NCBI GenBank assembly: GCA_016841525.1
Contig: JAENYZ010000004.1
Location: 62,001-126,000, forward strand
Direction: 5' to 3'
DNA: 64,000 nt
Origin: Anaerolineaceae bacterium
Lineage (GTDB): Bacteria; Chloroflexota; Anaerolineae; Anaerolineales; Anaerolineaceae
The position numbers and the translations under genes are program-made. Positions within the stretch are counted from its first letter, which is position 1. Every line of letters begins with the position of its first letter. The notes beneath the pieces were generated by a model. The model saw nothing but the letters and a program-made list of their open reading frames with translations. It did not search any database and was not told the origin of the DNA. Below, piece by piece: positions 40,220-52,680 of the stretch.

Positions 40220-40363
40220 GCAAAAACAAGGCTTAGATTGCTTGCCTATTTCCATTTCATATTACTTGAAATTTTTATTTGGTCAAGGGTCTTTATTAAA
40301 TGAAATTCCTTGAATTGTAGGCGCTTCTGTCAGAACGCCAAATACGAAGATTAAGATTTGGTG

Positions 40364-40372
40364 TGCTATAAT
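40364..40372 (+). promoter_or_regulatory. Extended -10 promoter of ftsK (TGCTATAAT)
   Basis: A TG-N-TATAAT extended -10 lies 42 nt before the ftsK ATG. No good -35 is seen, as is usual for extended -10 promoters. Confidence 0.5.
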
Positions 40373-40414
40373 CCATTCCAGAAAGAACGGCTTTATTCTT
40401 ATCAGGAGCGCTGG

Positions 40415-42676
<2,262 letters not shown>

Positions 42677-51519: not shown

Positions 51520-51756
51520 TTAATAATGTGCTTGCTGTCCAACGCCGATCCAGAAGTGATTCGGTATGATCGTGCTGTTTGAGCAAACATCAATTGCACC
51601 GGCATGCGTTTCTTTATCCGGAATCATGCTTGGATGAACAAAACACAAGTTGGGTTCCTGTCCATATTTCTTTTGGTAATAGGCTGCTGCACGAGCAACT
51701 TTGCTGAATAAATCTGATTTAGGGTCATTATCAAACCATAACATCCCAATATCCAT
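51520..51756 (-). CDS. Small protein of unknown function, partner of the SOS-linked ATPase
   Basis: A 78-residue soluble protein. Visible features are an acidic aromatic start (MDIGMLWFDND), a helix with KVARAAAYYQKKYGQ, then a central LCFVHPSMIP and a C-terminal segment rich in N, I and H (NSTIIPNHFWIGVGQ). The family is not recognised. AGGAGG lies 5 nt before the ATG at 51756, and a GTG one codon earlier is too close to it. It follows the ATPase gene by 25 nt and has no promoter of its own, so it is the second gene of the LexA-box operon. Confidence 0.78.
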   Translation of the reverse strand: MDIGMLWFDNDPKSDLFSKVARAAAYYQKKYGQEPNLCFVHPSMIPDKETHAGAIDVCSNSTIIPNHFWIGVGQQAHY

Positions 51757-51781
51757 CACGTCCTCCTGTGAAATTTATCCT

Positions 51782-52615
51782 TTAATCGCCTAACAAAGGC
51801 AAATGATAAGAAAGCCAATTTGATCCGGTCCAAACCTGGAAAAACCCTGGTTCTAAACTCTCAGCAAGGGAATTCTTCCCAATAGCAAGTATATCCAGGT
51901 CGGTTCTTGATTTTGTTAAACCAAGAATTCTTGTGCGAAAACTATCAATCCAGTAACGAAAACTCTCAGCATAAGTAGATTTTATCGCTGCAGTAATCCA
52001 TATTCCCGATTGAGCACCATAAGCCAGCAGCCAGTGCAAATTGACCTGGGCTGAGTAGCTGAGTTCTTCCACAAAATTGAAATCATCAAGGACCAATAAA
52101 ATTGATGCGCCTTCACGCTGTCCATCACGCCGAGCTTCTGCTAAAGTTACCAGCCCTTCGATCAAGGCTTCAGCGCCTGGTTCGTACCAAGCTTTGATCT
52201 GGTATAAATATTTTTCCTGTTGTGCCCTGCTCCAAAACGATCGCCATTCATTTGTCTTATGGGTCAGAATCGAGACCTGAAGATCATGCGGCTCGTTCAA
52301 GCGCGTGGCAGAATCTACCAGTACCTGCAGTTGATGGGTCTTCCCGCACGCTGTATCTCCGCTGATTAATAGCGCTCCTATTTCTGGATCAACCAGCTGC
52401 ATCAAAAATGGCAGACCATCCTTGCATTGACCCAATAAAAAAGAATGTTTGGGTATGGGTTTTACAGCAGATAATAATTTTCCAACAGTGAGACTTCGGG
52501 CGGGTTGTTTTTCCCTGGCAGGCATAAAGACATCCCGCCGCATTCGGTTGAATAAGCCAGGTAAACCCTGATAGCTTGTTCGAGGCCTGCTGATTACGAT
52601 GTTTGAAGAAGTCAT
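51782..52615 (-). CDS. FtsK/HerA-like P-loop ATPase, putatively SOS-regulated
   Basis: A 277-residue soluble ATPase. Walker A is GDTACGKT (86-93), a beta-strand plus K element SILTHKTNEW follows, Walker B is ILLVLDD (172-178), sensor-like WITAAIKS comes next, and a terminal GKNSLAESLEPGFFQVW mirrors the arginine/PG motif at the end of FtsK motors. It lacks membrane, linker and gamma domains. Compared with FtsK at 40415-42676, the motif order is identical but the protein is compact. The ATG has AGGAG 6 nt upstream. The promoter carries two LexA-type boxes, so a role in the DNA-damage response is inferred. Confidence 0.85.
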   Translation of the reverse strand: MTSSNIVISRPRTSYQGLPGLFNRMRRDVFMPAREKQPARSLTVGKLLSAVKPIPKHSFLLGQCKDGLPFLMQLVDPEIGALLISGDTACGKTHQLQVLVDSATRLNEPHDLQVSILTHKTNEWRSFWSRAQQEKYLYQIKAWYEPGAEALIEGLVTLAEARRDGQREGASILLVLDDFNFVEELSYSAQVNLHWLLAYGAQSGIWITAAIKSTYAESFRYWIDSFRTRILGLTKSRTDLDILAIGKNSLAESLEPGFFQVWTGSNWLSYHLPLLGD

Positions 52616-52637
52616 TTCATGCTCCTGTTCTAATATT

Positions 52638-52680
52638 CGAACTTATGTTCTAATTATATAGAATTTTTGTTCTATGTCAA
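52638..52680 (-). promoter_or_regulatory. Consensus promoter with two LexA (SOS) boxes
   Basis: On the minus strand, TTGACA (52680-52675) and TATAAT (52658-52653) are separated by 16 bp. A GAAC-N4-GTTC-type site with one mismatch (GAATTTTTGTTC, 52661-52672) fills the spacer. A perfect site, GAACTTATGTTC (52639-52650), lies just downstream over the expected start. The two centres are 22 bp apart. This matches the LexA box of Gram-positive and related bacteria. Confidence 0.75.

Follow-up and report, generated by a model that had tools for sequence, protein, structure and literature searches.

A LexA-boxed operon of a single-domain FtsK-type ATPase and a small protein in an Anaerolineaceae genome, and its place in a putative modular SOS machine of Chloroflexota

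A compact two-gene operon in the genome of an Anaerolineaceae bacterium near Brevefilum raises the question of whether a detachable FtsK motor is deployed upon DNA damage and, given the natural loss of the Walker A motif in some of its relatives, whether the activity of that motor is needed. The operon spans positions 51520–52680 on the minus strand of the window, i.e., the whole 64,000-nucleotide stretch of this genome which was analysed. The first gene (51782–52615, minus strand, with its ATG at 52615) encodes a 277-residue FtsK/EccC-type single-domain motor ATPase, of which a 90% identical copy is present in a Brevefilum record. The second (51520–51756, minus strand) encodes a 78-residue partner with a predicted beta-alpha-beta-beta-beta fold and no accepted family match, and lies downstream of the first across an intergenic gap of 25 nt (51757–51781). 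The promoter on the same strand consists of a −35 element, TTGACA (52675–52680), and a −10 element, TATAAT (52653–52658), separated by a 16-nt spacer. A LexA-type box (GAAC-N4-GTTC) with one mismatch, GAACAAAAATTC, is located inside this spacer (52661–52672) and a second, perfect box, GAACATAAGTTC, covers the expected start (52639–52650), both reading on the minus strand. Direct reading of the sequence thus placed the promoter, the two boxes and the order of the genes where the initial annotation had put them. The operon is bordered by a glutamine synthetase gene on one side and a calcineurin-type phosphoesterase gene on the other, and the same kinds of neighbour, named by eye, were seen at a second locus (L003). 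On the basis of these flanks and the similar neighbours in L003, the possibility of the operon being the remnant of a mobile element was rejected.

The initial annotation had taken the boxes to be binding sites of LexA. A lexA gene is indeed present in the genome, as a single match of 163.8 bits, along with a single recA match of 545.3 bits. In the promoter of this lexA gene, a perfect box occupies the spacer directly after TTGACA; the recA promoter likewise has a TTGACA, with a box of one mismatch in the corresponding region. It should be noted that one box alone, without its promoter setting, is not significant. The window contains 21 boxes with at most one mismatch versus 22.6 expected, and therefore the evidence must come from the position within the promoter and from relatives. 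The bare box is also not enriched genome-wide, as AGAACN4GTTCT gave 75 sites with at most one mismatch, four of them exact, versus 96 in the reversed control. When the box was combined with the −35 element (TTGACN3GAACN4GTTC), the lexA promoter was the sole exact occurrence in the 3.2-Mb genome, and allowing one mismatch added just the window operon and one other place; when up to two were tolerated, the 73 sites obtained were on a par with the 69 of the reversed control. On sequence grounds, the operon is thus distinguished solely by the position of its boxes in the promoter and by their conservation.

Within the family, a box behind TTGAC was present in all 42 readable lexA promoters, that of the genome itself included (50 loci fetched, eight of them unusable), with 28 perfect and six one-mismatch boxes in one batch and eight perfect boxes in a second. 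This bears on whether the boxes bind a repressor other than LexA, with the operon answering a different signal. The boxes of the operon mostly read AGAAC...GTTC(T) and that of the genome's own lexA reads CGAAC...GTTCG, but their core and promoter position match those of the 42 lexA promoters, many of which have AGAAC or TGAAC, making another repressor highly improbable.

Relatives of the operon were surveyed for the box using one locus per genome and the 250 nt upstream. The promoter TTGACA-16-TATAAT with its spacer box was retained in all 16 congeneric loci examined. The family sample comprised 60 of the 98 genomes carrying either gene, of which 59 were usable, the sixtieth being cut by a contig end; the sample from outside the family comprised 43 of the 79 genomes in which the small gene had been found there. 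Among the family loci, consisting of either the operon or a solo small gene, a perfect box was found at 35 of 59 (shuffle mean 0.18) and a box with at most one mismatch at 53 of 59 (shuffle mean 4.58). The corresponding values for the loci of other Chloroflexota were 27 of 43 (shuffle mean 0.16) and 32 of 43 (shuffle mean 3.99). No box with at most one mismatch was found in the 250 nt upstream of six of the 59 family loci (L067, L069, L085, L086, L090, and L091) and of 11 of the 43 loci outside the family. An additional set of 20 ATPase loci, drawn for the most part from other families, had a perfect box in 11 cases and one with at most one mismatch in 15 (shuffles 0.05 and 1.65), becoming 13 and 16 in a wider stretch, a difference that stems from the choice of start codon; some of these loci share the layout of one spacer box and one downstream. 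Related genomes were counted singly in these figures, and the locus counts are not independent events. A chance match was rejected on this conservation, which lies far above the shuffles despite the chance-level count in the window. With lexA present, the box and the gene pairing (see below) conserved, and the same box in the lexA promoters, the proposed LexA control held as far as it can be checked in sequence data; regulation of the operon by LexA through a putative operator is considered well supported by sequence.

The kinship of the ATPase to FtsK, proposed initially from its motifs, was confirmed by its predicted fold. The model of the motor (pLDDT of 87, residues 9–38 below 50) aligned to an FtsK structure with a Z of 25.0 and an rmsd of 2.4 over 230 residues, residues 38–277 aligning to 417–700 of 6t8o_D, and to EccCb1 with a Z of 23.5 over 223 residues. 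Identity to FtsK is about 17%. Profile searches with the motor returned EccC and FtsK, with Rho weaker, and its score against PF01580 (FtsK) was 17.2 bits, under the Pfam cut-off of 24. In the FtsK proteins proper, the motor is accompanied by an N-terminal membrane part and by additional domains, whereas the window protein represents the RecA-like motor part only, as a single domain, and no membrane-type hydrophobic stretch was detected in its 277 residues, in agreement with the initial annotation.

The closest named relatives by database rank were the EccC/EssC proteins of type VII secretion, EccC being the top NCBIfam match (E 2.5e-6, far below the cut-off of the model) and the EccC/EssC motor domain the top Foldseek rank. 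EccC of type VII secretion has several tandem ATPase domains and a WXG100-type helical hairpin as partner. The window motor differs in having one domain, a beta-alpha-beta-beta-beta partner and a LexA-boxed operon, and type VII secretion was rejected on this architecture. The motor also shares a fold superfamily with the HerA-type motors (Z of about 15–19) and, with HerA-NurA and SIR2/HerA, a motor-plus-partner layout. It differs from the HerA systems in scoring higher with FtsK, and PADLOC matched neither the motor nor the small protein, on which basis a defence system was rejected.

Both Walker motifs are intact in the window motor, Walker A (GDTACGKT) at residue 86 and Walker B (LVLDDF) at residue 174. 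This part of the FtsK motif order described initially was upheld; the terminal PG motif, however, was found by alignment to be mainly a genus-level trait and no feature of the family. Among 64 motors from 63 genomes, 50 keep the Lys and Ser/Thr of Walker A; the motif is lost or degenerate in the other 14, among them each of the four g3 and each of the three g40 sequences sampled. The acidic residue of Walker B was kept in 63. Degenerate ATPase domains occur in EccC/EssC also. On a quick tree the state of Walker A changed at least five times, two of these changes being forced by well-supported branches, with gain and loss indistinguishable. As Walker A is lost or degenerate in 14 of the 64 motors, motor activity is probably dispensable for retention of the module in those lineages and probably not needed for whatever maintains it there. 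The initial suggestion of a DNA pump is thereby weakened as a general function, although the window copy itself is intact. In the lineages without Walker A the motor may act as a structural partner, with no pumping.

The initial annotation had further proposed a two-protein machine. Of the 147 family genomes, 55 yielded the motor, 97 the small gene and 134 lexA; no small gene was found in 50. In 52 of the 55 motor genomes, as judged from tables compared by hand, the two genes lie together on the same strand. In G017 and G030 a contig end separates the pair, the contig of the small gene in G030 ending inside the motor tail, and G062 has a motor fragment with the small gene absent. The pair is thus conserved, but a machine of two proteins is too narrow a description, given solo small genes, a membrane partner in place of the small protein, and rows of three genes. 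In 19 genomes with the small gene and no motor hit, a motor profile also found no motor in the locus; the surroundings of these solo genes differ, several lying beside frr (by eye). The small gene was present in 84 of 400 evenly drawn Chloroflexota genomes, and its product is the more widespread part of the module. In genera g9 and g26, the genomes listed were without a match to the small gene, though most have lexA. It was also observed that loci L081 and L082 (G005, contig 4) are inverted copies of the operon about 28 kb apart, with identical scores and upstream sequence, and possibly represent an assembly palindrome.

The membrane partner was detected in a search of 400 Chloroflexota genomes with the motor alignment. 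Strong matches were obtained in other families, together with many weak ones mostly having ordinary FtsK/EccC frame lengths, and 20 loci from 19 genomes, being strong matches in other families or second copies, were fetched. Sixteen of the 20 come from families f4, f5, f10, f11, f12, f14, f24, and f82. Each of these has, within about 300 nt downstream of the motor, a gene for a two-helix membrane protein of 127–205 residues with two or three hydrophobic windows and, in several cases, a proline-rich tail. These 16 proteins form one BLASTP cluster, and none of the ten scanned passed a Pfam cut-off; a seventeenth candidate (f2) was unrelated to them by BLASTP. The Walker A of all 16 associated motors reads GxTGSGKT. 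Among these genomes, the small gene was seen in two only, G328 and G429, where it stands third in a row after the motor and the two-helix protein, with further copies elsewhere in G328. The whole reads as a single module from which parts may have been dropped in different lineages, and a membrane-linked FtsK-like machine is the likely ancestral form, a direction which we infer from these gene contents.

The genome itself encodes two full-length FtsK proteins which could be targets of the module, one in a 773-codon frame within the window (40355–42673, plus strand) about 10 kb from the operon and the second on contig C4. Their presence, the occurrence of the motor fold with no other domains, and the loss of Walker A in several lineages would all suit a dominant-negative subunit, by which the one-domain motor joins the rings of full-length FtsK and halts them during damage. 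Since the identity to FtsK is just about 17%, and all 16 motors with a membrane partner retain a canonical Walker A, this explanation is regarded as distinctly unlikely.

The small protein offers fewer points of comparison. Its model (pLDDT of 85) predicts a beta-alpha-beta-beta-beta fold for which Foldseek gave no clear structural relative (best E 0.19). The top VIA-align score, a Z of 5.4, was to phage-capsid domains and falls short of what that tool treats as meaningful, so that no kinship is read from it. No accepted match was found in Pfam, NCBIfam, PHROGs or PADLOC, the best stray family hit having an E of 0.0061 in one member among 54 scanned. SulA, YneA, SosA, and SidA are SOS division inhibitors, small products of LexA-controlled genes, and such inhibitors are unrelated in different phyla. 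The small protein resembles them in being a small product behind a LexA-type box, and it might similarly block division, the motor relative only docking it to FtsK or the septum. Its widespread gene, often solo with a LexA box (17 of the 19 solo loci in the family), is in keeping with such a role, as are the two boxes over a consensus promoter, which suggest a product that is kept off, and the use of unrelated inhibitors across phyla. However, YneA, SosA, and SidA have a membrane-type hydrophobic stretch, and none was detected in the small protein of the window. Unlike the known inhibitors, the protein also has no accepted family match and is linked to a motor ATPase. As work on DNA fits better with the replication, partition, and methylation genes beside its copies in viral contigs, a division inhibitor is considered unlikely.

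These viral-contig copies comprise 27 loci; in plasmid and phage records, no relative of the small protein was found at E 0.01. The motor was absent from the fetched flanks of all 27, and a box (at most one mismatch, within 300 nt) was present at two. Of 26 neighbours, hand-picked by eye from a longer list and not an unbiased count, 17 matched DNA-related families, some below Pfam cut-offs. These included ParA, ParB, a RuvC-like protein, a sliding clamp, a helicase loader and a helicase, as well as polymerase X, a DNA methyltransferase and an integrase. At one viral contig (L223, 4295–7379), a row of genes encodes JAB, ThiF (E1-like), small protein and DndC-like PAPS-reductase. At L226 (4429–5140), the first 28 or so residues of a small-protein gene are joined in frame to a sequence resembling a tyrosine recombinase (by eye).

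In family f48, the domain of the small protein is accompanied by basic Ala/Pro-rich tails. A Q-x(1,3)-L-W motif was found in five of ten f48 proteins versus 0.019 by shuffling, the pattern having been chosen post hoc, and it resembles the clamp-binding motif QLPLWG given for mycobacterial ImuB (PMC10421592). Both tail and motif are absent from the window's own small protein. The mobile-element neighbours and the basic f48 tails with their clamp-type motif are two indirect pointers to DNA for the small protein, which most likely acts on DNA or DNA replication.

A role at the clamp or fork is the main rival for the small protein. As a replication-fork or lesion-tolerance factor analogous to ImuA-ImuB, the small protein would have the sliding clamp or single-stranded DNA as its site of action, where the motor would remodel DNA or protein. 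The motif in half of the ten f48 tails, alike to that of ImuB (PMC10421592), agrees with this, together with the replication and resolvase genes near the viral-contig copies and the finding of a single Y-family protein in the genome. A motif match does not equal binding, however, the pattern was post hoc, the neighbours were hand-picked, and the window protein has neither the tail nor the motif. The operon itself is without an ImuB-type gene, and the one IMS-domain protein of the genome could be of the ImuB or the DinB kind. Overall, a fork factor is considered unlikely.

For the motor side, a role in segregation or division is the most likely, its sole basis being kinship. The reading preferred here, held with even confidence, is that the operon represents one version of an FtsK-type machine, modular and SOS-induced, in Chloroflexota, composed here of the motor and the small protein, which would probably act on segregation or division after damage. 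In the undamaged cell, LexA on the two boxes across the consensus promoter would keep the operon shut, and the conserved boxes shared with lexA suggest that RecA-triggered loss of LexA upon damage would open it. The first gene would then supply a soluble, single-domain protein related to the FtsK motor and the second a small protein most likely working on DNA or replication. At its most complete, as in the two three-gene genomes from other families, the motor, the two-helix membrane protein and the small protein would amount to an FtsK-like machine in pieces. Its most likely job would be to hold or clear chromosomal DNA or to modulate full-length FtsK, and thereby to delay segregation and division until repair is done. 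A more specific form of this reading is offered tentatively, in which the module is a damage checkpoint of Chloroflexota's own: a LexA-switched split FtsK made up of motor, two-helix anchor and a small DNA-acting protein captured by mobile elements, present as lineage-specific subsets, with a pseudo-ATPase motor in several anchor-less lineages and the small protein perhaps forming a link to the clamp.

A precedent exists in E. coli, where the essential promoter of ftsK is the SOS promoter dinH (PMC4080785). The window operon is similar in placing an FtsK-type motor under putative LexA control. It differs from E. coli FtsK in that the motor is a separate motor-only protein of 277 residues, sharing its operon with a small protein and existing besides two ordinary FtsK genes; in other families, moreover, a separate membrane-protein gene follows the motor. 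Among the titles and abstract openings retrieved from open-licence literature, none on the LexA regulon of Chloroflexota was found, nor any describing an FtsK-like SOS module of such a shape. The module is a likely core effector of the SOS response in this large, mostly uncultured phylum and brings two protein families without an accepted model match. The combination of box, motor, and small or membrane protein could also serve as a tag by which SOS regulons might be located in uncultured genomes.

Within the present genome the regulon may be small, since its sole Y-family polymerase has no box nearby. Elsewhere, a perfect AGAACAGATGTTCT palindrome (L035, 1501–1514) overlaps the ATG of mraZ (by eye), the first gene of the division cluster, and may be due to chance. 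In the same genome as the operon, a perfect AGAACAAGTGTTCT box (L036, 1501–1514) lies just upstream of a gene at 1557–2312 with a membrane-protein-like frame of 251 residues, which is a possible further LexA target.
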